Shown: piece after piece, positions 1-40,143 of the stretch
How positions within the stretch are numbered: position 1 is the stretch's first letter
How the letters are laid out: the number at the start of each line of letters is the position of its first letter
Origin: Mesodorylaimus sp. YZB2_4
Taxonomy: Eukaryota > Nematoda > Enoplea > Dorylaimida > Dorylaimidae
Length of the DNA stretch: 64,000 bases
Assembly: GCA_030248295.1 (NCBI GenBank)
Contig: JASANH010001724.1
Span: forward strand, 434,001-498,000
Direction of reading: 5' to 3'
Notes under the pieces: model-generated
What the model was told of the DNA's origin: nothing
The model's database searches: none
What the model saw: only the letters and a program-made list of their open reading frames with translations
Made by a program: the position numbers and the translations under genes

Positions 1-1278
1 TTGTTGGCCAGTGGGTTGTTCTTCGGTGTTGGGGATTTTATAACGCAGTAGGCGATTTTCCAGTATGTAATTCCTTGCAGCCTTAACTACTGCTGGGTTC
101 GGCTGGGCACCTGGTGCACGATAGTGGGTGCATGCATAGTAAACGTAAATTGGTCCTAAAAATATATCTTCTTTTTGCGCCTCGATAATTTCTCGCATTT
201 CCGGATAGATTTCGTCAGCAGGACTCGGTTGCGCGTTTGGTTCTTTCGCGCTGACTGACAAGTGGCCATGGGCAAGGGCTTCTTCGTTGGGTGGTTTAGG
301 GACACGCGAACGTGTGGAGAGCATGAGTGTCAAGCTGATGTGGTTCTGCTCAACCGACTCAGGTTGAACACGATCGACTTCTGGTGACAGTAATGGCTGG
401 ATTTCTGCCCAACGCAGCTTTGCGGTTTCCGAGTCAATGTTGGTTGGCTCATTGGTGAATGGTGGGCGAGACAACGCATCTGCATTATTCTCTTTCCCTG
501 GGCGATATTTGAAGCTCAGTTGGTATTGCTGCACAACGATGCCCCACCGGGTAATCCGTGGGTTTGGATTGGGCTTTTCAAAAATTGATTTCAGAGCAGT
601 GTTGTCGGTTATGACAGTTACTCGCTGCTCATAAATGTGTGGCCGAAAATGGTTCAAGGCTGAAACAACGGCAAGAGCTTCCAGCTCCCATGCAGCGTAG
701 TTCCTTTCAGCCTTGGTTAATGTACGGCTGTAATAGGCTACTGGGTGGTCCTTTTTATCTTCATGCTCTTAAGACAGGACTGCGCCCATTCCCTTAAAGG
801 ATGCGTCAGTCTGTAGGATCCAGGATTTCGTAAAATCGGGATGGGCCAGGAGAGGTGTTGTCGCAAGAGCCTGTTTCAGCTTCTTCAATGCTTTGCCGTG
901 TACATGTGGGAGCCAAATAAAATTGGTACCTTTTTTCACGAGGTTCAGGAGTGGTGATGCCATCTTGGAAAAAATCGGGATGAATCTCCTGTAATAGGAG
1001 AGAAGGCCATTGAATGCCAAAACTTCCTTGACGCTTTTTGGTTCGGGGCAAGCCAGGATTTTCAGAACTTTGTCTTGGTCAGGCGCTACGCCTTCTCCCG
1101 AGACGTGATGTAAAGGTGATATTGTCTCGCAGGAAACAACATTTGGAAGTTTCAATTCAAGCCCAGCGTCTGAGAACGCTTTGAAGACCTGTTCAAGGCG
1201 GTCATTGTGTTCTTGGAGTGTTCGACCATAAACGAGGACATCGTCGAAATACGCAAAAATCGTCTTATGAATAACCAA
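1..1278 (-). pseudogene. Ty3/gypsy retrotransposon pol fragment (RT-RNase H), broken
   Basis: Reverse-strand reading matches the C-terminal part of Ty3/gypsy reverse transcriptase followed by RNase H. Near the start is the YFDDVLV form of the catalytic YxDD box, then the connection region FNGLLSYYRRFIP, then QTDASFKGMGA of RNase H and, further on, TDNTAL and the YRPGKENNADALSR motif. The element is truncated at its 5' side around 1270, just upstream of the YFDD box, so the RT fingers are missing. An in-frame TAA at 769-771 interrupts RNase H, and residues are missing after GLELKLP. Downstream of that stop the frame stays open to the window edge. No LTR, integrase or gag is visible. It is a dead copy whose remaining part lies to the left of the window. 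Confidence 0.9.
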
Positions 1279-3572: not shown

Positions 3573-5095
3573 ATGTTGAAAAAAGCGAAAAAGAAGAAAG
3601 TTGCGGTATTGTCATTGACGACGATCGCCGTTTGTATCGAGGAGGAAGAAAGTCGTCGACAAATCCGAAAATACTACGTTCGTCCAATCAATCTGCTACG
3701 ACCGATACGGGGCGAGTACGAAACGTTGATCGGTGATATGAGGCAATTGAACGATGAACAATGGAGGCGAGAATATCTAAGAATGTCGGATGAGACGTTT
3801 GGGGAGTTGTTAAACATGGTTCGCCCATTGATCGAGAAACACCCAACACATTTATTGCCCATCAGCCCGGAAACAAGACTCGCATTTACAATCATGTAAG
3901 TGCACTACATCTAAGATCTTTGCGTACTGGTTGATTGGGATATTGAAGGTAGAATTAGCTAGATGGAATTTTGTCATTGTGCCAACCAGTGACATAAGAA
4001 TTTTCGTTTTTTGAAGGATGTTGGCGAGTGGTCACTTGATCAAATTCGAGCATAAACGATTTCGCATCGGATATTGTACGGCTGTCAAGATTTTCCACGA
4101 GACATGCCTAGCGATCTGGACGGTCTTGAAGGATCGCTACTTGACTCCTCCCACGCGTGATCAGTGGGAACAAATTGCTTATCGATTCCAAGAAAGGTGG
4201 AACTTTCCAGGGTGCTTAGGTGCTATCGATGGGAAGCACGTCGTATTGCAAGTAAGTAATGCAAGTTTGCTTTGTGATACAGTGCATTGCTAACTTTACC
4301 TCTTTTTGTTCTAGAAACCATCACGAGCCAGCAGCCAGTACTTCAACTACAAGAAAGACCACTCGATAGTGTTGATGGCAGTTGTGGATGCGGATTACAA
4401 TTTCATCTTCATCGATGTTGGGGCGTATGGTCGCGAAAGTGACAGCGGGGTTTTTAACCGTTCGAGATTTTCGGCAGCAGTTTATGATCCAGCAAATTCG
4501 TTAGGTCTGCCAGGCCAGTTTCGACTCCCAGGAACGGACAAGATTAGCAATCATGTATTTGTGGCAGACGACGCGTTTAGCCAAAGTAAGTTCCTGATTG
4601 CTTTCTGTTTTTGACGCGTTCTGAAACCGCATTCTATTTTCAGGCCATCGGCTATTAAACCCGTATTCGGGACAACAATCAGCATTATCAGTCAGTCATC
4701 GCGTATTTAACTATCGGCTATCTAGGGCAAGACGCATTGTGGAGAATGCTTTCGGCATTCTAGCAACAAAGTGGCGTATCTTCCGAAGACCGATAACATA
4801 TGCACCATCGAAAGCCATCAATGTGGTTAAAGCGTGTTGTGCTTTGCACAATTACATACGGAAGTTTGATCACGATCCTGACTACGTCCCACCCGGGTTC
4901 GTCGATAGCGATGGGAATGTCGAGGACGGTCAGTGGAGGTCGGCTGCATTGCCGAAATCAATTTTTGATGATCTAAATCGAACGCAAGGTTCAGAAGTGG
5001 CCAGGTCGAAATCGGGTTTAGCTTTAAGGGAAATGTTACGCGAGTATTTTGTCACCGAAACCGGTTCAGTTTCTTGGCAGATGTCAAAAATTTGA
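3573..5095 (+). CDS. PIF/Harbinger DDE transposase, four exons
   Basis: Exons 3573-3895, 4017-4251, 4315-4585 and 4644-5095 join with consistent phase into 426 aa; all introns are GT-AG (121, 63 and 58 nt). The N-terminal part has the family signature RKYYVRPIN...GEYETLI...FRMS-like (here LRMSDETFGELL). The nuclease follows: GAIDGKHV with the first Asp before the second intron, KDHSIVLMAVVDADYNF and DVGAYGRESDSGVF with the second Asp, and RIVENAFGILATKWRIF with the Glu. CCALHNYIR closes the domain. These match the DDE_4/HARBI1-type nuclease in order and spacing, with no stop or frameshift, so the protein could be functional. HARBI1-like domesticated genes would lack flanking TIRs; here TIRs are present, so this is a transposon gene. 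Confidence 0.9.
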
Positions 5096-24239: not shown

Positions 24240-24410
24240 TTGCTTGCTCGTTTGCTCGTTTGCGGTACAGGCGACGTTGTTCGAACTCTTTCAGGTCGGC
24301 TAGAAGAGCCCTCCAACTTCGAGTCCACCATTCGAGCTGCACGAACTTTCTTCGCCCCAGGCCTCGGCTTTGTGATACAAAAGCAGCACGAGGAGCAAGA
24401 AGACGAACAT
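24240..24410 (-). pseudogene. Broken copy of the secreted proprotein family
   Basis: ATG at 24410 begins a signal peptide (MFVFLLLVLLLYHKAEA) like that of the intact gene at 28760-29635. An internal deletion then joins it out of frame to DNA corresponding to the KKVRAARMVDSELEG part, and TAG follows soon. Homology ends near the RRLSRKR region. Its promoter is preserved just upstream (24448-24578), so a short transcript is still possible. Confidence 0.8.
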
Positions 24411-24447
24411 TATGGCTCAAGGAAAAGACGGCTCCAGGTTGCACGCG

Positions 24448-24578
24448 GTTGGTGGAGTTATTAACTATAAAGGTGGAATGACGGAGAGCGAGCGACCTCG
24501 GTATCGAGGGGAATGAACGAGCGACCGATAGTCAAGGGCGGAAGTTCCTGTCTGGTCAACACTGCGGCCTTGACTGCT
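24448..24578 (-). promoter_or_regulatory. Conserved promoter module, copy 1
   Basis: Matches the promoter of the intact gene: TATA-like CTTTATAG, an ACCTCGGTATCGAGG word and the block AATGAACGAGCGACC...GTCAAGGGCGGA...AACACTGCGGCCTTGACT. Confidence 0.75.
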
Positions 24579-24664
24579 GAGTGAACCCCGGCGACCGAAA
24601 GCCCAGCAATCACCTTACTCATAGGTTTCTCGTATCTTCAAGTCTTATCGTTAGTAAGGGAGTT

Positions 24665-24832
24665 TTACCGGCCTCGTGGCCTGGTGGGTTAGGCGTCTGC
24701 CTCTCACGCCAGGTGCGCAGTTACGGGCGAGTGTTCGACACGCGGGCCGGTACATTATTTCGTGCAAAATGTGTCTCTTCACTCTTGAGTGAGCATAAGC
24801 CTTTGGTGATGTGGTAAAACATGAACATGAAT
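24665..24832 (+). mobile_element. tRNA-derived SINE (family 1)
   Basis: The head GCCTCGTGGCCTGGTGGGTT...CTGCCTCTCACGCC...GTGTTCGACACGCGGG resembles a tRNA with A and B boxes and a Glu-like CTCTCAC loop. The body continues TTATTTCGTGCAAAATGTGTC and ends GGTGATGTGGTAAAACATGAAC. Other copies: 31850-32017 (forward) and a head-only copy at 34877-34972 (reverse). Confidence 0.8.
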
Positions 24833-25601
24833 ATGAAGGGCCGCAACTTGGCTACAGCCTAACTGGTTTCCCGCTGATTCATCAGCAAGTCAACATTCTT
24901 TCGATGCCTGCGACTCAGGAGGCCTGAGCACTGAGCTTCCTATCTGTGTTTTATGTGTTATGAAGTTAGCAAAAAGACAATAATCATTACTGTTCGTTGC
25001 TTCTGACCAAATCTCAGGTGTCCCTTGCCCCGGCTGACAAATGTTAAAGAATTTACGGAGAAACTTGAAGGGTTGACTTTGGTTTCATGCTAATAAAACA
25101 AACAAGCCGCCTTAACTCTAACCTGTTACAAGAAAGCAAATTGCGAGGCCTAGTCTTATCGTCAGGTGTTTTACTAAAAAAAAACCGGATCATTATCAGC
25201 TTCTACTTAGCGACCAGATCGGGTGAGGGCTTGTCAGATCAGATCAGGAAAATTTCGGATCGAATCATGAAATACATGTGATTTCTTGAAAAAAAAGCGC
25301 ATCAACTTTTTTTGAGAGGTTGCTCCCCATGATAAACATAAAGTAAATTCATTATCATGGTGCCATAACACAACCATGGCTATGGATCCTTTCTTGGATC
25401 TGATTGTGAGGTAAAAGTTGTTGAATAAGCTGCTCATAGACATTGATTTTTTATTTTTATTCCCTTAACAAAGACTGATCGCCTGCCAAAATCATATTAT
25501 CAATCACTTCACCTGTCGGAACGATCCTATCACCCTAAAAAATAAGTATTCGACATAAAAGAGTGTGAAACAGGATAGGAGTCAGAAGATGCACCCACTT
25601 T
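24833..25601. other. Intergenic
   Basis: No gene seen apart from the dispersed repeat at 25253-25310 (TCGGATCGAATCATGAAATA...GCGCATCAACTTTTT). Confidence 0.45.
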
Positions 25602-25814
25602 TTAGCCCTTTGTTTTCGATGGGCGTCGACTAACTGGAATTTGACCCTGGACCTGTTTCACGGCTTTGATAACTTTAGGCTTTATGCCACGCGTATTCAC
25701 CTCAACTAGTTCTTCTAGCTCCGCGTTATTGTTCTGCTCTGAATTGGCCATCGTATTTGGTCCCAGAAGAAGCAGAACGACGGACAGCACCAGGATCCAT
25801 GGGAGCACCTTCAT
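25602..25814 (-). CDS. Small secreted peptide precursor, 70 aa
   Basis: Single-exon ORF starting at ATG 25814. A strong signal peptide (MKVLPWILVLSVVLLLLG, cleavage probably near residue 23) is followed by an acidic segment (NSEQNNNAELEELVEVN) and, after a single Arg, a basic segment (GIKPKVIKAVKQVQGQIPVS, then RRPSKTKG). An acidic pro-part followed by a cationic, partly amphipathic C-terminal peptide is the usual plan of many antimicrobial or neuropeptide precursors. There are no Cys residues. A TATA box lies about 80 bp upstream. No family match is recognised, so the function is only a suggestion; that this is a real gene rests on signal peptide plus promoter. Confidence 0.65.
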   Translation of the reverse strand: MKVLPWILVLSVVLLLLGPNTMANSEQNNNAELEELVEVNTRGIKPKVIKAVKQVQGQIPVSRRPSKTKG

Positions 25815-25890
25815 CTTTGCTCAGTCTATGGAGCGGTAGACTACCAGGAAAAATGTTCGAAGCAACTGACTGGCCCAGATTTCCACTTCG

Positions 25891-25900
25891 CTTATATATT
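25891..25900 (-). promoter_or_regulatory. TATA box of the 70-aa peptide gene
   Basis: AATATATAAG on the reverse strand, about 80 bp upstream of ATG 25814. Confidence 0.55.
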
Positions 25901-27005
25901 TATCAAAATAATAGTCGATATTTATCCGGTAATACAATAAATGGTTTGTCCAGCTTTCCTATCCGCTTGATAATAAGCCCAAGGTTTTTGAAAATGTTCA
26001 GCTTTACCTAGCCAAAGTAAAATTACAATCTTCCAGAAGCAAACATCAGAATACCAGGATGATGGCAGAAGTTGTCGCAGCCCTCTCAGAGAAGGACAGT
26101 ATATACTAACTAAAACGAAACTGTAGTCTTGGCAGGAGGGAGACAGCACTGTGTCGATATCGATGTCGATTTCCGCGTTGCAATTTTCTGAAAAGTCAAA
26201 AATGATGAAGTCAAGGCCGGAATGAAATGCTCATATGTGCATCTTCAGCTACGCATGCCTCTTCCCTCCTTTTGTCGATATGAAAACCAACACTCTGTTC
26301 GTTGTCGAACAAAGGTGTGTAAAGTTTTTCGTCAAGCAGTTAGCTCGATTATACAATATCCGTACGCTACACTCCCGGACACCACAGGCGCCAGGCACGC
26401 ACAGTATGCACTCGCTCGACGCGGAATGCAGGGACTTACATACTGTAGGTTAACCCGACCTGATCCTGCGTCTATACATGGTGCCGTTGCACGAGCAGCG
26501 CTTCCTGTTGATAATTGGTTGGTAAAAGATTTACAGTGATTGATAATATTTGGCATTATTGACTGTTTAAAAAAAATTCAAGTATGAAATTCACATAATC
26601 GGATCCGAAACTCATCTGATCTGAATGGTTCCAATCCGCTTCGAAACTTTCCCCATGCGATCCGATCTGACAAACCCCCATCCGGTCCAGCCAGGAGGCG
26701 CATCATGGAAGTCAGACAATAGACAGCTTCGAGGCTCGTTATCCAGTACATGCTGTCAATTCTGTGTCTACTTTCTGCTGTGGAGAAGTCGTCGCATAGC
26801 GTACGAAAAATCGTGAGTTCAATAGCAACAGTGTAGATGCGGACGTTATTATGGTGACAACTTTTGCAAATAGCCTTGCTACGCAGCAAACTAATGTGAT
26901 AGATGTCATTAATCAATCGACTATGTTATAAAAAAAATTGTGAAAGTTTTTTCCTATTGAGTATATATGTTCTAGAATGCAGCCATATGAGAAGGACGGA
27001 AAATA
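25901..27005. other. Intergenic
   Basis: No gene seen. 26597-26690 is another GATC-rich patch (CGGATCCGAAACTCATCTGA, GCGATCCGATCTGAC). Confidence 0.45.
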
Positions 27006-27573
27006 CCGTATTTCCTCGAAATTCTCGCTTAGGGAGAAATTTTTTCAAATGGGCGCCAGACGGGGTAAAATAACCAGAGGGGGAGAATAAAACTCAAACA
27101 TTTACCAGATGCAAGAAATAAACTTTTCATTGCCGCACAGCGCATCATGGATCCCTGATTATTTACAACCTGACAAAGTAAAGATCGGATCCATCCTGCT
27201 CATAAGTGACTGCTAACACAGTCACAAATTTGTTCGCACGCCAGGACAAAGATATTAGGGGCGTGGGCGACTTGACTACGACGCGAAAGAAAACTTGGCA
27301 ATCACGCAGATCGCACTAACTAGCTGATTGGATGTACAAATCGAGAGAACGAATTTTCCATGCCTACGATATAAACTAGCGTCAGGTGCACCACTGAAAT
27401 GAGCAAAGACTAAACTCCTTCTCGCTCGGCCCGGCTTCTCGAAAGCACTTATAATTAAGTCGGGATTAATTTCTGGGTAATCTGGCATTAACTTTGCGAT
27501 CCGTTTTTCGAAGTGACTTAAAATTGAGGTTGGCCTTTAAATTTAGCAGCTGAGGCTCGAAAAATAAGGTACC
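27006..27573. mobile_element. Non-autonomous DNA element with TACCGTATTT-type ends
   Basis: The left end TACCGTATTTCCTCGAAATT and the right end (reverse TACCTTATTTTTCGAGCC) are similar inverted termini. A degenerate relative lies at 13497-13572. No coding region is supported. Confidence 0.5.
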
Positions 27574-27589
27574 TCCGGAGGTACCTTAT
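27564..27589. repeat. 26-bp perfect palindrome
   Basis: Left half ATAAGGTACCTCC, right half its exact reverse complement with no spacer. It lies at the right end of the element at 27006-27573 and could be two abutting element ends or a cruciform-prone site. Confidence 0.85.
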
Positions 27590-28759
27590 CCACAATAAGC
27601 CCTCATTATCGGGCTCTGTCACAGCTTTTGCTTGATCAGGTGCAAGCATTTTTAAATCTTCTCGCGATCACGCATATGAAGGAGAGCCCTGGTCGTGGCC
27701 CATCGTGCCCATCGTGCCCGTGGGATTTACTTGGAAGTCGTTGGTGACCTTTTTTGCTGTCTCTGAGGTGAGGAGGCTGCATGACTTCGTTTCTGTTCCT
27801 TATCTGATCTTAACCTCAATGGTTTTACAATCAGTGGCATGCTAGGCGTTGCTGGTGTTATCGAAGGCTGTGTGGCGCCGAAGCCAGCATTGAGCAGTGT
27901 GTGAAGTTGCAAAGTGAGGGTGTTTTTGGAGATGATGAAATCAGGAATGAAAAGGACAATTAGGACAGTCGGACTGTGGTTACCAGCGAATCTGAGGGCA
28001 CCGCTGGAAGTGGCTCGTGCTGGTACGCGCGTCAACCTTCAAAGCGGGGCCCGGGGGGGGGGGGGGCGAGCCACGCCATCTGATTATTTTTCTCCGCAGT
28101 TTGGAAAGCAAAGTCGTGCACATTTGCCGTGCAATCGAGCTATCAGGTTGATTGCTTGCAAAAGCAAGTGGATGAATATGAAGTGTAACCGAGCCTGGCA
28201 GGCGTCAGAGGAAGGTTGCCAGGACGAAAACTCCGACTAGTGCAGGCAAGTCTTGCATAAACTTGTCAACCCTAAAACCGCGAGTACATGGGACCAGCCA
28301 GTAGCCACGCAGGATCTTTCTCGATCACTTTTTGTCAGCCTGGATTAGCCTGCTGCTGAAGTTATGCTCACGCCTGTCTACGAATATGTGACCAACCAAA
28401 TAATAACGCCTTGTGGTGTCACCTGATCCCGAGTATCCACACCCAGGAGATTAATATTCCTAAACCTTGAGTGTGATCGGTTTTGTTAGAGAGTGAAGAA
28501 CGGACTGCAAATGTGCTATCATAAACAGAGTTTTCTTTGCTTTCTTGTGTTAGTCAGTTAGTTAGTTAGTTGTCTTTTTTTTGAGTAAAATCAATTTGAA
28601 CTTGCCTTTTTATTGTATATCGAATTCATAATCATATTATCTTAATTATATACGTCACAAACAAAATCAAGATTATTCAAATCATTGTATATATTATAAC
28701 CGACTTACCTTCAGAGGTCAAGAGACTAATATTAAATCCTGTCAATGAATAGAAACCAA
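27590..28759. other. Intergenic
   Basis: No gene seen. A G-run of about 14 lies near 28051-28064 and a GTTA microsatellite at 28552-28570. Confidence 0.5.
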
Positions 28760-29635
28760 TTAGCCAGGCCCCCCAAACAAAGTAAGCAACGCTTCTACGA
28801 AGAAAGGAACTTGGTTTCTCTTTTTTGCCACCAGCTCCTCACCTGTAGATTTACTAAAAGACACTGGGAAACTGTCAAGTTCCAACTGCTGCCCACCCTT
28901 ATCCAGGGGAATCACCTTCGTGACGATTGCGTAATGTTTTCCCACAGCTGCATTCGGAACATAAATGAAAAGCTGCTGCCTCGGCTGGATCGGCTCTGAA
29001 AATTGGAACAATTCGCGTCGTTCTTCCAAATCGATAATACTGCCCGAAATATTGGCGGAGCTGAATGGCAGGTCTGACGTGACAAAACGTAACGTTGCAC
29101 CACGCCGATCGAGAATGGCATTGGCATCGAGAACCCACGACGAATAAATAAATCGTGCTGGACTGATGCGGGTATCGACGCTAGCACGAACCATCGCGCA
29201 TTGAGTGCATATTCCGTCGGGATCGGTGTCAAAGTCAGCACATACGGCGTACCATCCATTCTCACGTGCCATCAGATCTGTTGTATCGAGGAGCAGATTA
29301 AAATCAAATTCATTTTCATCGAGTTGACAAGCCGGTGCGTCGCTGATTTCCGATACTCGTTTGCGGGATAGGCGACGTTGTTCGATTTCTTTCAGATCAA
29401 GACTGAAAGAGCCCTCCAACTCCGAGTCCACCATTCGAGCTGCACGAACTTTCTTCGCATGGATCGGCAATCTCAGAATCCAGTGCTTATCGTTGTCCGA
29501 ATTCGAACCATTCGAGCTGATGCCGGCGCAAATATCCATTCGCCCCGCGGCGTACTTGCATTGTGAGCTGCTCGCCAGACCCTGGACCTCGGTTTGGTGA
29601 CACAAAAACAGCACTAGAAGCAAGGAGACGAACAT
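28760..29635 (-). CDS. Secreted proprotein, 291 aa, unknown family (intact member)
   Basis: Single-exon gene with ATG 29635 and TAA at 28760. The signal peptide MFVSLLLVLFLCHQTEVQG is followed by an N-terminal region (residues 20-87) that ends in RLSRKR (88-93), a good furin-type cleavage site. The C-terminal part has Cys at 103, 132, 143 and 146 (CADFDTDPDGICTQC), an N-glycosylation site near 195, alternating hydrophobic strands (TLRFVTSD, QLFIYVPN, HYAIVTKVIP) suggesting a beta-sandwich, and a hydrophobic end (VPFFVEALLTLFGGPG). I do not recognise the family. At least three further copies of gene and/or promoter lie within 10 kb; the copy at 33672-34360 differs at about 7 of 153 aligned residues, so duplication is recent. 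A secreted, convertase-processed factor is the simplest reading; the role is unknown. Confidence 0.75.
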   Translation of the reverse strand: MFVSLLLVLFLCHQTEVQGLASSSQCKYAAGRMDICAGISSNGSNSDNDKHWILRLPIHAKKVRAARMVDSELEGSFSLDLKEIEQRRLSRKRVSEISDAPACQLDENEFDFNLLLDTTDLMARENGWYAVCADFDTDPDGICTQCAMVRASVDTRISPARFIYSSWVLDANAILDRRGATLRFVTSDLPFSSANISGSIIDLEERRELFQFSEPIQPRQQLFIYVPNAAVGKHYAIVTKVIPLDKGGQQLELDSFPVSFSKSTGEELVAKKRNQVPFFVEALLTLFGGPG

Positions 29636-29681
29636 TGTGGCTCAAGAAAAGGACGGCTCTGGATCGCACGCAGTCGGTTGA

Positions 29682-29807
29682 CTTATTATAAAGGTAAAAA
29701 TATACACTGCAAATGACCTCGTAATCGAGGGCAATGAACGAGTGACCAAGAGTCAAGGGCGGATTTTCTCGCCTGGTCAGCGAGTGCTCAACACTGCGGC
29801 CTTGACT
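29682..29807 (-). promoter_or_regulatory. Conserved promoter module, copy 2 (active gene)
   Basis: TTTATAATAAG (TATA) lies about 50 bp upstream of ATG 29635. Upstream are a CCTCG...CGAGG inverted word and the block AATGAACGAGTGACC / GAGTCAAGGGCGGATTTT / ACACTGCGGCCTTGACT. The same order occurs at 24448-24578 and, inverted, at 31103-31235. Confidence 0.8.
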
Positions 29808-30033
29808 TGTCTCCGTATTTTCATGCTTTGGACAGAATGGAGGTGCTCCTGCCCAATAAAGTCTGCCATTTTGATTTAAGTTAAAAAGAGGGCAATGAAA
29901 GTGACAAGATCCGCCAGGTGGTTTGTTTTATCAGCATGATATGATTATTGCATTAGTCAACAAAGCGGGACTCGTTGAGTTTCTCCAGAAAACCCTTTTA
30001 CATCTGTCAGCCAGGTGAGACAGTCGTTCATCC

Positions 30034-30120
30034 GGTATCGGAGGCAATGAACGAGTGACTAAGAGTCAAGGGCGGATTTTCTCGCTTGGTCAACGGGTAC
30101 ACAACACTGCAGCCTTGACT
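30034..30120 (-). promoter_or_regulatory. Orphan promoter module, copy 3
   Basis: Near-identical to the distal promoter block of the intact gene (AATGAACGAGTGACTAAGAG ... AACACTGCAGCCTTGACT), but no TATA region or coding sequence follows on its downstream side. It is the remnant of a tandem duplication placed about 300 bp behind copy 2. Confidence 0.8.
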
Positions 30121-30467
30121 GAGGAGTAAACGCCAGCACAGAAACTGCAGCAGTCGTTTGTGCTATATTAGCTGTCTTCGTATTTCTTAGGTATGGTACT
30201 ATGTAACTAATGGCCGCAAGTAGGCGAGAGTCTTGGCGATTTTTTAGTGATTCGTCGACATGCTAACCCGTTTTCTTCACCCATGACTTTGGGAGAAATA
30301 GAGTATAACAGACATAATGCAGGTAAAGACATTGTCCTGGTCGCTAACACGATAACCCATTAAACGCAAATATGTAGCGCACCAGAATAATAGGATGGAA
30401 GGCTGGTGCTTTCTAATGGATTAGTGTGGAATCAACGAGGGTCTACTTGTGGTACTTTCACTATTAT

Positions 30468-30815
30468 GTCTGTTATGACAACCTCAAAATTTTCACACCA
30501 GCTAATGAACATAAATGATAAGCAGGGCTTTGGATGGCTGGTCTACTCTACCAGTTGGCTTGCAAATATGCTTAAGGGGCTTTTTTGCATGAATATCAGC
30601 AGCACGACTGAGCAACGAGCAGATTGTCTTGCAAGATCCAACTCTGCTGGTCTACATAGTGGGCTGAGAGTGTCTGTATCTCGGCTGGGTGGCACATGTG
30701 GCATGGCAGGATGTGACACTATCCCCTCGTGGCCGAGTAGACCAGCCATCCTGAGCCCTGGTTAACCCCTACGTGCATTAGCTGGTTTAAAAGTTTTGAG
30801 TCTGTCATAACAGAC
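30468..30815. mobile_element. 348-bp MITE with GTCTGTTATGAC ends
   Basis: The left end (GTCTGTTATGACAACCTCAA, then ACCAGCTAATG) and the inverse right end (GTCTGTTATGACAGACTCAA, then ACCAGCTAATG) are inverted repeats for roughly 90 bp including CAGGGCT...GGATGGCTGGTCTACTC. Possible target duplication TAT. Same family as 31379-32316. Confidence 0.75.
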
Positions 30816-31102
30816 TATTCTAGAAATACAAGTTTCTAAACCTTTTCCGTTTTTTTATTCGTACTGTTTCCGACCAAAACACCCCGCGCCAATACATATA
30901 TCAAATAAGAAAACTAGTTGGCAAGCACACTATTTTTTAAACCTCTGTAAAACATCAGCCTGGGTTTGGAAAGCGCATTTTAGCTTGGCGCAGGACAGTC
31001 AGTGCCAAGAGACTTTTTGCCACGAGACATTTAGTCAGGCAGGAAAGCACCTTTGCTCCTTATTAGCCAGCACCAGAGCCGAGAGCATGAATATACACAG
31101 AA

Positions 31103-31235
31103 AAGTCAAGGCCGCATTGTAAACCACCCGCTGACCAGGCGAGAAAATCCTCTGTTGACTCTTGGTCACTCGTTCATTGCCCTCGATAGCGAGGTCGTTC
31201 GCTGTCCAGTTTCACCTTTATAATAAGTCAACCGA
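31103..31235 (+). promoter_or_regulatory. Conserved promoter module, copy 4
   Basis: Inverse orientation of copies 1-3: AAGTCAAGGCCGCATTGT ... TGACTCTTGGTCACTCGTTC ... CCTTTATAATAAGTCAACCG, ending about 40 bp before the ATG at 31273. Confidence 0.8.
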
Positions 31236-31378
31236 CTGCTGCAATCGAGTGCTGTCTTTTCCTTGAGCCATAATGTTCGTCTTCTTGCTTCTCTTGCTGT
31301 TTTTTTATCACCAAACTGGCTCAGGGTCTGGCGAACAGCTCAAAATGCAAGTACGCCCTGGGGCGAATGGATATTGTT

Positions 31379-32316
31379 TCCAAAAAGTCTGTTATGACAG
31401 ACTCGAAACTATTAGACAAGCCAATGCGCACAGTGGAACCAGGGCTTGGGATGGCGTGTACTCGGCCACTAGAAAAAGGAGAGGTGGCCCAACATGCCAG
31501 GCACTGCACACAGCGTGTAATATTCGCTGGCACACACATACTGTATGTATGCATTGAGAGGTAAGCAAGCAAGCAGTAGAGCCAAATAGTTTGTGTTCTA
31601 TGTACTGCTGCTGTTCAGACAGGTTCCCTAAAGGATACCAGTTGTGCTGTTACACATGAGCAACCTTAATAAGCCGAAGCTGTAGCGCTGCCAGTAAAGT
31701 GATATGGCTTATCGTTAGATGCCTAAGCCTCGAGAGACACTGAAAAATCTCCCCCAACCCTTCTTCCAGCTTTATGTTCATGCTCATGGTTGATCATATC
31801 AGTAATGACACTCTCGAGGATGAAGGGAACATTGACAAAAAATGATTCACATGCGCCTCGTGGCCTGGTGGGTTGGGCGACTGCCTCTCACGCCAGGTGC
31901 GCAGTTACGGGCGAGTGTTCGACTCGCGGGGCAGTAAATCATTTCGTGTAAAATGTGTCCCTTCACCCTCGAGTGCGCATAAGCGTTTGGTGATGTGGTA
32001 AAACATGAACATGAACACGGGTCGAACACTCCCTACTAAGAATATACGAGCAAGTGCTACTACGCATAGCCCGGGAGTTAGACACTCCTAGCCCACTATG
32101 TGGACCCCGAGCTCACGTTTTCATCAGCCTCTGCTCGTTTCCAGGATCAGTCGTCCTGTTGATAATCATGAAGAGAAAGCAGCTTCTGCTCAGACATTTT
32201 TCAAACCGTGGTTGCGTTTAACAGCGGCCGAGTAGACCAGCCACCCTAAGCCCTGGTTCCACCGTGTGCATTGGCCGGTCTAAAAGTTTTGAGTCTGTCA
32301 TAACAGACTTTTTTTG
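31379..32316. mobile_element. MITE of the GTCTGTTATGAC family, large copy
   Basis: The left end AAAAAGTCTGTTATGACAGA and the inverse right end share about 85 bp, including CCAATGCRCAC, GGTGGAACCAGGGCTT-like and TACTCGGCC words. The SINE at 31850-32017 sits inside, so insertions are nested. Confidence 0.75.
31850..32017 (+). mobile_element. tRNA-derived SINE (family 1), second copy
   Basis: GCCTCGTGGCCTGGTGGGTT...GAGTGTTCGACTCGCGGGG and the shared body GGTGATGTGGTAAAACATGA; close match to 24665-24832. Confidence 0.8.
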
Positions 32317-33189
32317 ATAAGAATAAAACCATTTTTCTTTTTTGCTACAAACTAGTTCTGCTGAAAAAAGCACGTCCTCACATAGATAAACTGAGAGAAT
32401 TCGGAGACTTGACTACTGTAAGCCTTCTTCCTAACCTCAGAAAAACAGAAACAGAAAACGTAACGTGAACCCCCGCCCATAAAATTACTCGTAAAGACCG
32501 CCTACAGATCGACCATTTCATAGTCAGAAACTCTTACCCGCACTACCGTGCCCGCTAATGAAATGCGCAGATTTTTCCAATATGTACTCAGATATACAGA
32601 CGGCAGGAAAAACAGCAAAGATATTTTTCTGATGCCTCTATCATACCCGATACCATCTTTGAGTTGGCAAAAAGTCCAAAAGTAAGACCGCTCATATTCC
32701 TTGTCCACAAAACATGCTCCATTGCAAAAATATGCTGACATTACTGACAGTACGAGAAGGCAAGCAGACGCAGACCCAGGGAACTAAAAAAAACACCCTA
32801 TCAAAGCCGGAGCCAGCCCAAAGAGAGCTAGCTCATTGCTTGGGGTGGTCTTAACTTTTTTATCCTCAGAGCATTCCATCAGAAGCTGAAACAAAACACT
32901 CAGGATCCGCAAGTTTTATCAGGTTTTAATTAGCTCTAATTTTTCTCAACAATATTACCTCCACATCAATTAAAACATGTGCTGCCCATGGAAACTCTTT
33001 CCACATCATTTATATTCGTTCACATATTCTCAATTTATTATCGGCAAATTTATTGGTGCACGCGAAATTCGTCTTCGTGAGAGCTTGCTGAGCCTAGCCA
33101 ATCAATGGAGCTGCACCTCAACCCGTTCAGTTAATTTTCTAAACTCCGCGCCGAAAAAAAAACAGAAACACTATAGTGCCAGCCACTTT
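32317..33189. other. Non-coding sequence inside the broken gene copy
   Basis: Part of the 2.3-kb stretch that separates the two halves of the pseudogene; no gene or clear element recognised. Confidence 0.4.
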
Positions 33190-33629
33190 CGATAGTCGAT
33201 AACTCAAAAACGGTTGAACCAAGGAGTAAAAATTTTGCATGCGTTGCAAAATAGGTCAGATCTGTTACTGTGTCAATTTTCATCAAGATCTGTCGAGTAC
33301 CTGACGAGCGATGGGTTGAAAAAGCCGAAAAAGCGATTATTTTCTAAAAAACTTAAGAAACTAAAGCAGATTCTGAAGGCGCGAGCTTTCAGAAAAAAAC
33401 TAACATTTACACCTGTGCGACCTCAGGTTGTTGCGCACCTGATCTTTATCCTCCTCCTCCTCCTCCTCCTCGTCTTCTCGCCCTGAACAAGAAATCGCTA
33501 TTCTGGAACAAGACAACGGCTGGACAGATTTTAATAAAACTGGCACGATTGTAGATTCAGCCGATTCTGCAACGTGTGCGAAAAATCAAAAACTTTCGTT
33601 TAACCGTTCTCGAGTTATTAACCGGCGAA
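33190..33629. mobile_element. Short inverted-repeat element
   Basis: GATAACTCAAAAACGGTTGAA (about 33198) pairs with TTTAACCGTTCTCGAGTTATTAA (about 33599). The interior has a CTC-trinucleotide run (33451-33472). The frame across it has no recognised domain. Confidence 0.5.
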
Positions 33630-34876
33630 AATCGTCCTTTAGCATTAGGCGTCTGGTTGGCTGTGCCTGCTGATTTGTGCCGGCATCAGCTCGAATGGCT
33701 CGAATTCCGACAGCACTAAATTCTGAGATTGCCGATCCATGCGAAGAAAGTTCGTGCAGCTCGAATGGTGGACTCGGAGTTGGAGGGCTCTTTCAGTCTG
33801 GATCTGAAAGACATCGAACAACGTCGCCTGTCCCGCAAACGAGTATCGGAAATCAGCGACGCATCGGCTTGTCAACTAGATGAAAATGGATTTGATTTTA
33901 ATCTGCTCCTCGATACAACAGATCTGATGGCACGTGAGAATGGATGGTACGCCGTATGTGCTGACTTTGATACCGATCCCGACGGAATATGCACTCAATG
34001 CGCGATGGTTCGTGCTAGCGTCGATACCCGCATCAGTCCAGCACGATTTATTCATTCCTCGTGGGTTCTCGATGCCAATGCCATTCTCGATCGGCGTGGT
34101 GCAACGTTGCGTTTCGTCACATCGGACCTGCCATTCAGCTTCGCCAATATTACGGGCAGTATTATCGATTTGGAAGAACGACGCTAATTGTTCCAATTCT
34201 CAGAGCCGATCCAGCCGAGGCATCAGCTTTTCATTTATGTTCCGAATGCAGGTGTGTGAAAAAATTACGCAATGGTCACGTATGTGATTTCCCTGGATAA
34301 GGGTGGGCAGCAGTTAGAATTTGATGGCGTTCCAGTGACCTTTATCAATGGACAGAGAAGGGCCAGCAAGGAAAGAAGGGTGGCCAGCAACGACATTTTC
34401 TTGTTGATGTAATACTCTGCGTGTATGACTTGTTCGGTTGAATCGATTGTCGAGACTGATGATGAGCATGAGCACACTTTTTCGCGGCATTTTGGAAACA
34501 AACAGGTTTTTTTCGGCGATAGGTAGGGTACATATATATATGTTTGGATGAGGATGGATTACTTTGATGAAAGATTAAGGCAGAACGTCTGTCATTTAAA
34601 AGTTTTTTTCATAAAATACACAACATATTTGATGTGTTTTGAAGGAGAAAGTAGAGAAGGACGCTGATAAAATGCAGTAGTTAGAAAAAGAGTAGGTTTT
34701 GGGCAATTCGATTTGTGATTTCATATTGATCATATACTGCAAAAACCCTACCGACTTATTACTACTGAGCCCTTTTTCTCGATATGGCATTTATATGGAG
34801 GTCATACTTGTCATACTTTATCCATAGCCAAGAACTATACAGCGCACTCGAGGGAAAGGAACGTGTATTTGACAAT

Positions 34877-34972
34877 CATTTTGTACCCAGGCGGGGATCG
34901 AACCCTCCCTTGTAAGTGCGCACCCATCGTGAGAGGCAGACGCCTTAACCCGCTTAGGCCACGACCTTGGTG
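34877..34972 (-). mobile_element. tRNA-like SINE head (family 1), third copy
   Basis: Reverse strand reads GGTCGTGGCCTAAGCGGGTT ... TCTGCCTCTCACGATGGGTG ... GGAGGGTTCGATCCCCGCC. Box A and B are recognisable; the SINE body is not. Confidence 0.7.
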
Positions 34973-37219: not shown

Positions 37220-40143
37220 ATGCAAAAGGAGTTTCCCATCCAAACAAATCCTCAAAAAGTGCCTTTGAAATCTCTGTGGCCCTTGAGAATTATATCAATA
37301 GTTCAACTGATCTTGGGTGTTTTGATCGTACTGTTGGACAGTATTGCTTTAGGGATAGTGCATGAACATTATTTTTTGCAGCTGTTGCACATCGTTGTTA
37401 TCGCATGCTCATTTGGCACTGGAATTTGGGTCGGTGCACTGGGGATTATCGCTGGTGCATTTGGCCTCGCAGCCTATCGGACTGGACATGGGAATAAATG
37501 CTTTATGACCACTCATTTTGTACTAAGTATTTTCGCCTCAGTAGGCGATGGCATTTTGTTGATCTTCACGTCACTTTGCTTGACTGCGTTTCCTCACCTT
37601 GTCAACCGGAGTGGCCGAAATTATGGTCCAGTATACAGTGCTAAAGATGCGCAGTTATCTATATCATCTGACCTGTTGCACGGATCAATCGCTGTGGAAT
37701 CCTTTCTTATTATTTTTGGTGCAGTGCATTGTGAGTACTTCTGACTCTTTTCTTACTCGAATAGCAGCACATAGCAAAACTGGTTTTCTGGACGTGGTAA
37801 CTGAAATTATTGTTTCAATTTTAGTGAGGATCTGATATCTAGCTTTCACTTGCCAGAAAATTTTGGAAAGCACTGTATCAACGCGATTTTTTAGTGTCTT
37901 TGAAAATTCCCAAAAGGAAATTGAATTTCAATTTGTCTAAATCTCATTCGTTTTTTTTCTCGCATTTGTCTGAAGCGCATTTTTCAATGGAGGTTGTTCT
38001 TTTCCCAGACCCTTCGTTGGGACTCGTACTCATAACCCAAGCAATAAGTGGGTTGTGGGCTGGGTTAGGCCAGAAAAGTCAAGTAAATGCAGGCCTCTGT
38101 CCTAGATTGCCGATTCCATGTCAAAATATCGCAGTAAAAAGGTCGCACGACAAAAGGTCGCAACAAAAAGATCGCAAGGGCATAAAGATCGCACGACAAA
38201 AGATCGCAACTAAAAAGATCGCAAGGACAAAAGGGTCGCATGGTATAAAAGGTCGCAAGAAACAAAACCATGAAAAACAATGAAGGTGATGACAGCTCAT
38301 TTATGTCCCCCTATAAATTTAGCTGTCGATGAAGGTTTTAGCCATTTCAGCTGTTTCTTAGAGTTAGTTTGCGATTCTCTTTTTGCTGCAAGATGCCTTT
38401 AGAATTCGCAAAAAGTCAGAAAGGGAAAGATCAGCTTTGTTATCGCGGGCACTTATTCGGAAAGGAGCGGGAAAGCGGAAACAAAATCGATTGGAAGTGC
38501 GTGAATTTCAAAAACAACAGGGGAAACTGCCGATCCCGAATGCAAACTGAGAACGGACAGGTGTCGAAGGAGCCAGGCGAGCATAATCATGCCCCCGATC
38601 CAGCTAAGATAGCTGTGAAAAACGTCGTGAACAACATCAAAGATCGAGCCTCAGGAGCCCAGGAATCGACCCATCAAATTATTGCTGCAGTTCTTGCCAA
38701 ACAAGACCGAAGTTACGTACACCAAGTTATTGGCCGAGTTGAAGGAGCTGAATGCAAATCTGAATCCAACTTCCATTATGACTGATTTCGAGCAAGCGGC
38801 GATCAATGCATTCGCTTCTGAATTTCCTCAGACGGAGAGGCGTGGATGCTTTTTTCATTTTTCGCAAAGCATTTGGCGCAAAATCCAAGCTGCTGGCCTA
38901 CAACATCGCTATGAGAATGATCCGGACTTTGGATTGCAAATGAGAATGCTGCCCGCATTATCTTTCGTACCGATTCCTGCGGTGGTGGATTCGTTTGAGC
39001 AATTGGCCGCATTGTTGCCAGCAGAGGCACAACCAGTCGTCGATTATTTCGAGGACACTTGGATCGGCAGACCAAACCGCAGAGGTATAAGACGTGGCCC
39101 ATTGTTTCCAATACCACTTTGGAACTGTCGTGAATCGGTTATTAATGGAATTGCGAAGACTAATAATTCGGTGGAGGGGTGGCATCGAGGTTTTTCTGAT
39201 CTAGTTGGCGCCCATCATCCATCGATTTTCAAATTCATCGATTCGTTGAAGAAAGAGCAAAGTCTGAATGAAACCAAGATCGAACAGTATGTCGCTGGCC
39301 AGCAGCCGCCTCAAGGCTGACGAAAGTATCGGGATTGCGCGGAAAGAATCGAAAGAATCGTAAATGATTATGATAACAGAGATATCATGGATTATTTGCG
39401 CGGTGTCGCTCATAATTACAACTTCTAAAATATGTTTTTAATGCAACCTACTCGTATTATGTTCCACGTTTCATGACAGTGGGTGTAAAATGTAAAATTA
39501 TGGTATTTCTGGCCATTTTCGACATGTTATGAGAGTGAAAATAAATTTTTTTAACGCAGTGCTCTAATTTGCTTAAAAATTTATATATGCGATCTTTTTA
39601 GTTGCGATCTTTTGTCGTGCGACCTTCTTGCCTTTGCGATCTTTTTGTTGCGATCTTTTGTCGTGCGACCTTCTTGCCTTTGCGATCTTTTTGTTGCGAC
39701 CTTTTGTCGTGCGACCTTTTTCCCGCGATCTTTTGACGTGTCACGTAGATTGCCAGCCTACCTTGTTCTTCAGCGGATTTTCAAAATGACCTTCATTGTC
39801 AATATTTCGCGAATAATCAAATTTTTCTTAGAGGTTTTGTGCTGGTTGTGTTTTAGAATTCAGCGCTTATCAAGTGTCCTTTACTTTTCAGTCGTAATCA
39901 GCATCTCGTCATCTGCCTTCATCTGCCGCAACTGGTGTGGCGGTCCGACCACAAAGACTATTTCTGTCGTTTATTTGCCTCAACCAGACGCGCATGCTGG
40001 GAAAGACAGGGAACCAATATCTGTACCAGCTAACACTCAAGTAACTGGGCTTTTCTTGTCCCACTGTCCTTTCAGCACTTGCACGAAATTTGTTTCAGGT
40101 TATTTTTATACCAGGTCAGAATGCGCAATCGATTACCCAATAG
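37220..40143 (+). CDS. Tetraspan (MARVEL/CD20-like) membrane protein, three exons
   Basis: Exons 37220-37730, 39892-40040 and 40099-40143 join in phase to 234 aa. Exon 1 holds TM1 (22-46), TM2 (about 67-86, IWVGALGIIAGAFGLAA), TM3 (98-120) and the start of TM4. TM4 is completed by exon 2 (GAVH|FVISISSSAFIC), which is strong support for the join. The cytoplasmic tail begins CRNWCGG and has SVVYLPQP. An NRS glycosylation site lies in the second loop. The WxGxxxxxxG pattern of TM2 is common in MS4A/CD20-like and sarcospan-like proteins. Intron 1 (2161 nt) carries the MULE at 38112-39745. The last intron is 58 nt; if it is not removed, exon 2 runs to TGA at 40193, so the last residues are uncertain. 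Confidence 0.75.
38103..38111 (+). repeat. Target-site duplication of the MULE, left
   Basis: TAGATTGCC, identical to 39746-39754. Confidence 0.85.
38112..39745 (+). mobile_element. Mutator-like element with repeat-built TIRs
   Basis: 1634 bp between perfect 9-bp duplications. The ends are long inverted repeats made of short tandem units of the type GGTCGCACGACAAAA / GATCGCAACAAAAA (38119-38260 and, inverted, 39590-39738). It carries a FLYWCH-MULE transposase gene that is internally deleted. It sits in the forward orientation within intron 1 of the tetraspan gene. Removing it would leave an ordinary intron of about 520 nt. Confidence 0.9.
38393..39428 (+). pseudogene. FLYWCH-MULE transposase, internally deleted and frameshifted
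   Basis: From ATG 38393 a FLYWCH zinc finger is readable (LCYRGHLFGKERESGNKIDWKC... EHNHAPDPAK). At about 38690 the frame changes into the middle of a MULE transposase (LPNKTEVTYTKLLAEL, IMTDFEQAAINAF with a catalytic Asp, GCFFHFSQSIWRKI, INGIAKTNNSVEGWH). The region that should contain the first catalytic Asp is absent. A second frame change near 39315 precedes the C-terminal residues, which end at TAA 39426-39428. The encoded protein cannot be an active transposase, so this copy must have been moved by another source. Confidence 0.85.
39746..39754 (+). repeat. Target-site duplication of the MULE, right
   Basis: TAGATTGCC, identical to 38103-38111. Nine bp is the size typical of Mutator-like elements. 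Confidence 0.85.

Follow-up and report, generated by a model that had tools for sequence, protein, structure and literature searches.

One intact gene among decaying local duplicates: an unnamed family of probably secreted nematode proteins with a positioned GGTCA element upstream

A stretch of 64,000 nucleotides from the nematode Mesodorylaimus sp. YZB2_4 (contig JASANH010001724.1, positions 434,001 to 498,000; hereafter the window) contains one intact gene of an unnamed protein family, at 28760–29635 on the minus strand, and three decaying local duplicates of it. Sequence comparison indicates that the family is old and small and that only the duplication in the window is recent. Its members are probably secreted, are predicted to fold as two Ig/FN3-like beta-sandwiches, and carry a GGTCA element at a nearly fixed distance upstream of the start codon. 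This element has outlasted nearly all other upstream similarity, and is described here for the first time. An original prediction made from the letters of the window had proposed a recently amplified, fast-evolving secreted proprotein with a portable promoter. The mobile-promoter story is replaced here by local gene duplication and decay. What can be tested further is a nematode family that looks secreted, has no Pfam entry, and is united by a predicted fold and a positioned upstream element.

The uninterrupted frame of the intact gene encodes 291 amino acids, as predicted, and starts with a signal-peptide-like N terminus, also as predicted (judged by eye). With the encoded protein as query, 21 matching stretches were found in the genome (145 Mb in 1,067 contigs), stretch counts here and below being lower bounds. 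These comprise the intact gene and the pseudogene of the window, a short piece at its position 31319, eight intact paralogs (15 stretches, one or two pieces each), a copy in C260 and a distant frame with 23% identity in C103. The C260 copy, at 68–70 kb (L058:1925-4306), is split over two frames and is either broken or intron-bearing. Neither a paralog query (21 stretches) nor the distant-frame query (12 stretches) added a new family locus. The multi-copy family with intact frames that had been anticipated is therefore present as the eight paralogs, which are 268–378 amino acids long and 29–40% identical to the window protein. Hydrophobic starts were seen by eye in all nine family frames, and secretion of the members is probable from their sequences. 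In a tree the window pair was joined in 100/100, and five of the seven inner branches were left open. The proposed recent amplification applies to the window pair; beyond the locus, the end branches of the paralogs are long (0.82–1.4 changes per column).

The family could not be named from the libraries searched, in agreement with the original prediction. In Pfam the window protein had no match at E <= 1, and neither the eight paralogs nor the C103 frame had an fn3 or Ig match at E <= 5. NCBIfam matched none of the nine family proteins at E <= 1, and sequence search of the PDB returned nothing useful (best E 0.5 with the protein and 1.1 with the alignment). No description of the family was found in titles or abstract openings of the literature searched. 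A single pattern from the nine-member alignment gave eight pattern stretches in viral_contigs, none of which was confirmed. The single-protein query gave 57 pattern stretches in genome_contigs and one relative, a 1,332-amino-acid open frame of otherwise different make-up in a Christensenellaceae metagenome-assembled genome (L064), which is 32% identical over residues 50–131 and shares the short stretch DENEFDF; this resemblance was judged to be chance.

The upstream element was first noticed by eye, as GGTCA/TGACC in the upstream letters, and was tested afterwards. In a survey of all 512 pentamers in the 250 bases before the nine family genes, GGTCA ranked second in enrichment (21 seen, 5.2 expected) after the overlapping GTCAA (23 seen, 6.05 expected). 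In a scan by 40-base bins, GGTCA was the only pentamer present in 9/9 genes; the best that any pentamer achieved was 6/9 in 100 shuffles and 7/9 when segments were drawn at random from the window 100 times. It is located at -80 to -114 in each gene, on the gene's strand in eight cases and on the opposite strand in one paralog (L050). GGTCA density is 18 per 1,350 upstream bases, 50 per 23,120 flanking bases (a count that includes the pseudogene promoters of the window) and 21 per 8,988 coding bases. The core is mostly preceded by T, and the hexamer TGGTCA occurs in only five of the nine genes, which was equalled by 2 of 100 shuffles, so that the longer form is not established. In the intact gene, the upstream region copied with the gene (29636–29830, minus strand) has GGTCA on the gene's strand at 29743–29747 (-112) and 29714–29718 (-83), and a TATA-like TTTATAATAA, identified by eye, about 55 bases 5' of the ATG. 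The split C260 copy retains GGTCA at -115 and -77, and the distant C103 frame has none in the interval.

The protein model consists of two predicted domains. Domain 1 has six near-constant Cys, in a pattern that includes WYxxC...CxxC; in the window protein they are residues 26, 36, 103, 132, 143 and 146, preceded by one Cys in the leader (12). Residues 36 and 103 would be expected to form a disulfide. The four-Cys C-terminal part that had been described dissolves on this count, as its Cys belong to the six-Cys first domain and the C-terminal domain has none. Domain 2 is modeled as a seven-strand sandwich resembling solved Ig/FN3 domains, and domain 1 may fold in a similar manner. Foldseek comparison of the whole model to the PDB gave query TM of 0.18–0.28 with rmsd over 12 among the matches listed, and comparison to viral structures gave query TM of at most 0.30 among the matches listed; both sets of values indicate fold class only. 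The predicted sandwiches resemble Ig/FN3-like domains such as the GH2 Ig-like domain, the transglutaminase C-terminal domain, fibronectin and cytokine receptors. The family differs from these in its six-Cys pattern, in a domain-1 loop between the last two predicted strands that varies from 10 to 79 residues, in an identity of 2–17% in the alignments listed, and in having no Pfam fn3 or Ig match. Class I cytokine receptor modules have a WSxWS motif in their second domain; by reading, this motif is absent from the nine aligned family sequences. Splice-like signals (GTAAAT, GTGAGG, then TTGACAG and AAGGTAAGT) are present at 28703–28854 on the minus strand, some close to the 3' end of the intact gene and some past it, and the real C terminus may therefore differ from that of the 291-residue frame. 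The similarity of the pseudogene to the intact gene, as read from the blastn alignment, ends at the GTAAAT.

These observations may be united in one explanation, which we regard as reasonably probable as a whole: local duplication within an old family of secreted two-sandwich binding proteins that are co-regulated through GGTCA. Duplication of the gene with its upstream region would have left decaying copies beside the intact gene. The common GGTCA would bind one regulator, perhaps of the nuclear-receptor type, and through this regulator the members of the family would be expressed jointly in a single tissue or stage. Their products would be secreted binding proteins with two Ig/FN3-like sandwiches, the variable loop of the first helping to set the binding partner. 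The functional step taken by itself, namely ligand binding adjustable through the variable loop, is a guess from the modeled fold and the loop variation, and we regard it as less likely than not. The nuclear-receptor half-site is AGGTCA, with which the family element shares the five-base core, the preceding base being mostly T in the family.

Somewhat unlikely, but the strongest of the competing explanations, is that the family serves a structural or housekeeping purpose, as matrix, cuticle or carrier, and that GGTCA is not specific to it but is a core-promoter element in common use in this nematode. The nearly fixed distance from GGTCA to ATG would suit a core element, and no ligand is known for the family. 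However, GGTCA was found in the interval in only one of nine unrelated window genes, a small control set in which two starts are uncertain, and GGTCA itself was never in more than four of nine in the 100 draws of random window segments. It is quite improbable that GGTCA is a relic of common upstream ancestry having no working role. Related genes are expected to have promoters that descend from one, but over 200 bases just one of the 36 pairs of upstream regions aligns better than its shuffles, and among the 60 orderings of the GGTCA letters the next best reaches 4/9. An unselected pentamer should have been lost, because the family proteins differ at 60–70% of positions. In the decayed window copies, moreover, the -112 GGTCA is altered in two of three, namely the upstream-only fragment and the oldest of the copies, and is kept in the younger pseudogene, and the -83 GGTCA is altered in both of the copies that hold that place.

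The GGTCA element has a counterpart in the DOG box (ATGCCA) of cyst nematodes, which shows enrichment in both orientations before the genes of secreted dorsal gland effectors, peaks 150 bases before the start codon and occurs in 26 of 28 unrelated effector families, with gland expression found by in situ hybridisation for two predictions (PMC4901422). Both are short motifs upstream of secreted or, in the present case, probably secreted nematode proteins and occur on either strand; the element found here is GGTCA and not ATGCCA, and is known within one family. A wider proposal, which we put forward as a speculation more likely to fail than to hold, is that in this nematode lineage GGTCA about 85 bases before ATG marks a co-expressed secreted set, of which the family, as loop-variable two-sandwich recognition proteins, would be one part. 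The set would amount to a system for extracellular recognition, immune or host-directed, that is particular to the lineage and is not listed in the protein libraries searched. If GGTCA does mark other secreted genes, it would offer a handle on a tissue-specific secretome in a little-studied nematode.

It is very improbable that the protein is a secreted proprotein from which cleavage at RLSRKR would release a peptide or a C-terminal part. The basic stretch exists, about 70 residues past the leader, and its RLSR fits a loose R-x-x-R motif. The stretch is nevertheless situated inside predicted domain 1, and the furin-like form claimed for it does not hold: the window protein nowhere contains R-x-[KR]-R, not even within RLSRKR, and this motif is missing at the aligned place in all nine members, where the residues vary widely and the site is not conserved in the eight paralogs. 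Elsewhere in the family R-x-[KR]-R occurs only in two members, L055 and L057.

The duplicates that surround the intact gene were located by blastn of the gene and its upstream DNA against the window, which gave five further pieces on both strands: 33673–34344 (plus, 93%), 31084–31375 (plus, 85%), 24362–24575 (minus, 76%), 24255–24355 (minus, 89%) and 30037–30120 (minus, 89%). The first two adjoin in the query, the 31084–31375 piece ending at query base 370 and the 33673–34344 piece starting at query base 368, and thus constitute one inverted copy that is split. Its 5' part (31084–31375) comprises the upstream region plus some 34 codons, and a frameshift lies near the start of the copy; its 3' part (33673–34344), 93% identical in DNA to the intact gene, has three in-frame stops. 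The open part of the latter is 96% identical in protein to the intact gene over 152 residues, consistent with the difference of about 7 in 153 residues first reported. An older truncated copy (24255–24575, minus strand) retains the upstream region, the leader and a piece of domain 1, with both GGTCA places altered, and a fragment of the upstream region alone (30037–30120, minus strand) has the GGTCA of the -112 place altered. The two broken copies and four promoters originally listed are real, with the correction that the promoter at 31103 and the gene fragment at 33.7–34.3 kb are parts of the one split inverted pseudogene.

Over 220 codons the window pair differs at 18 of 153 synonymous and 17 of 507 non-synonymous sites. 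The resulting dS of 0.128 and dN of 0.034 (dN/dS about 0.27) do not support the claim of fast evolution. Since dN/dS includes the time after breakage, the constraint before the pseudogene broke was probably stronger. The duplicated unit spans roughly 28855–29827. On the 3' side its flank aligns with a score of 19 against 18–23 in shuffles, which is no excess, and on the 5' side with a score of 21, slightly above the 14–19 of ten shuffles. A query of the 191 bases that precede the ATG had four matches in the genome at E <= 10, all of them inside the window; the copies lie at 31084–31268 (plus, 85%), 30037–30120 (minus, 89%) and 24415–24575 (minus, 73%), with whole-genome E of 2e-51 to 3e-20, well beyond chance. 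The DNA of the gene likewise matched four places in the whole genome, all within the window. The gene and its upstream region were thus copied jointly, as had been proposed, and locally, and there is no sign of a promoter moving by itself; the copies appear to have arisen by ordinary local duplication at the DNA level. A gene-plus-promoter cassette moving as a unit through the genome, suggested by several joint copying events in either orientation inside 10 kb, is exceedingly improbable given the confinement of both sets of genome matches to the window, the 3' flanks that fail to align beyond shuffles, the lack of any terminal repeats of its own seen at the unit, and the fact that the pseudogene acquired its sole repeat by insertion.

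This insertion (31376–33672) is about 2.3 kb long, with terminal inverted-repeat-like arms at 31382–31455 and 32240–32313 and a tRNA-SINE-like segment at 31855–32015. The pseudogene can be described as split by a dispersed repeat, since the insert sequence recurs at other genome loci. Its right part, 32319–33672, matches at least 75 stretches across the genome, counting the one in the window itself, with 40 of 629 candidates scored. Among three loci compared, L062 contains most of 31382–33674 without the 31854–32017 segment, L061 contains parts of the left half in changed order, and L063 has only 32319–33674 in common with the insert. The tRNA-derived-SINE-like segment, recognized by eye, is itself dispersed: it occurs at 24671–24831, 31855–32015 and 34882–34950, the two 161-base copies being 92% alike and the third match shorter. 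A translated stretch resembling it is also found in L059, and ARAGORN reported no tRNA.

Another short element, at 30468–30815, has inverted arms (86 bases, 81%) and belongs to a high-copy family; of the at least 151 matches of a query that contained it, most fall on this element (40 of 629 candidates scored). Adjoining the locus, a 70-residue frame with a hydrophobic start (25602–25814, minus strand) is a possible gene for a small secreted peptide, with weak Pfam matches below the cut-off. The canonical SL1 leader pattern had no exact match. The search for the 5.8S family also gave no match, which says little because there is an 18S gene with spacer DNA behind it; this 18S looks enoplean. TTR-52, which is typical of nematodes, had 27 matches and none in 14 prokaryote controls; together with the receptors and other genes of the window named below, these matches indicate that the host is probably a nematode. 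Remains of transposases of the DDE_Tnp_4 and MULE types are located in the window at 4739–5095 and 38682–39320, respectively, and a frame at 769–1278 (minus strand) resembles reverse transcriptase by eye. The window also encodes Srsx-type receptors, sugar transporters and a kinase.
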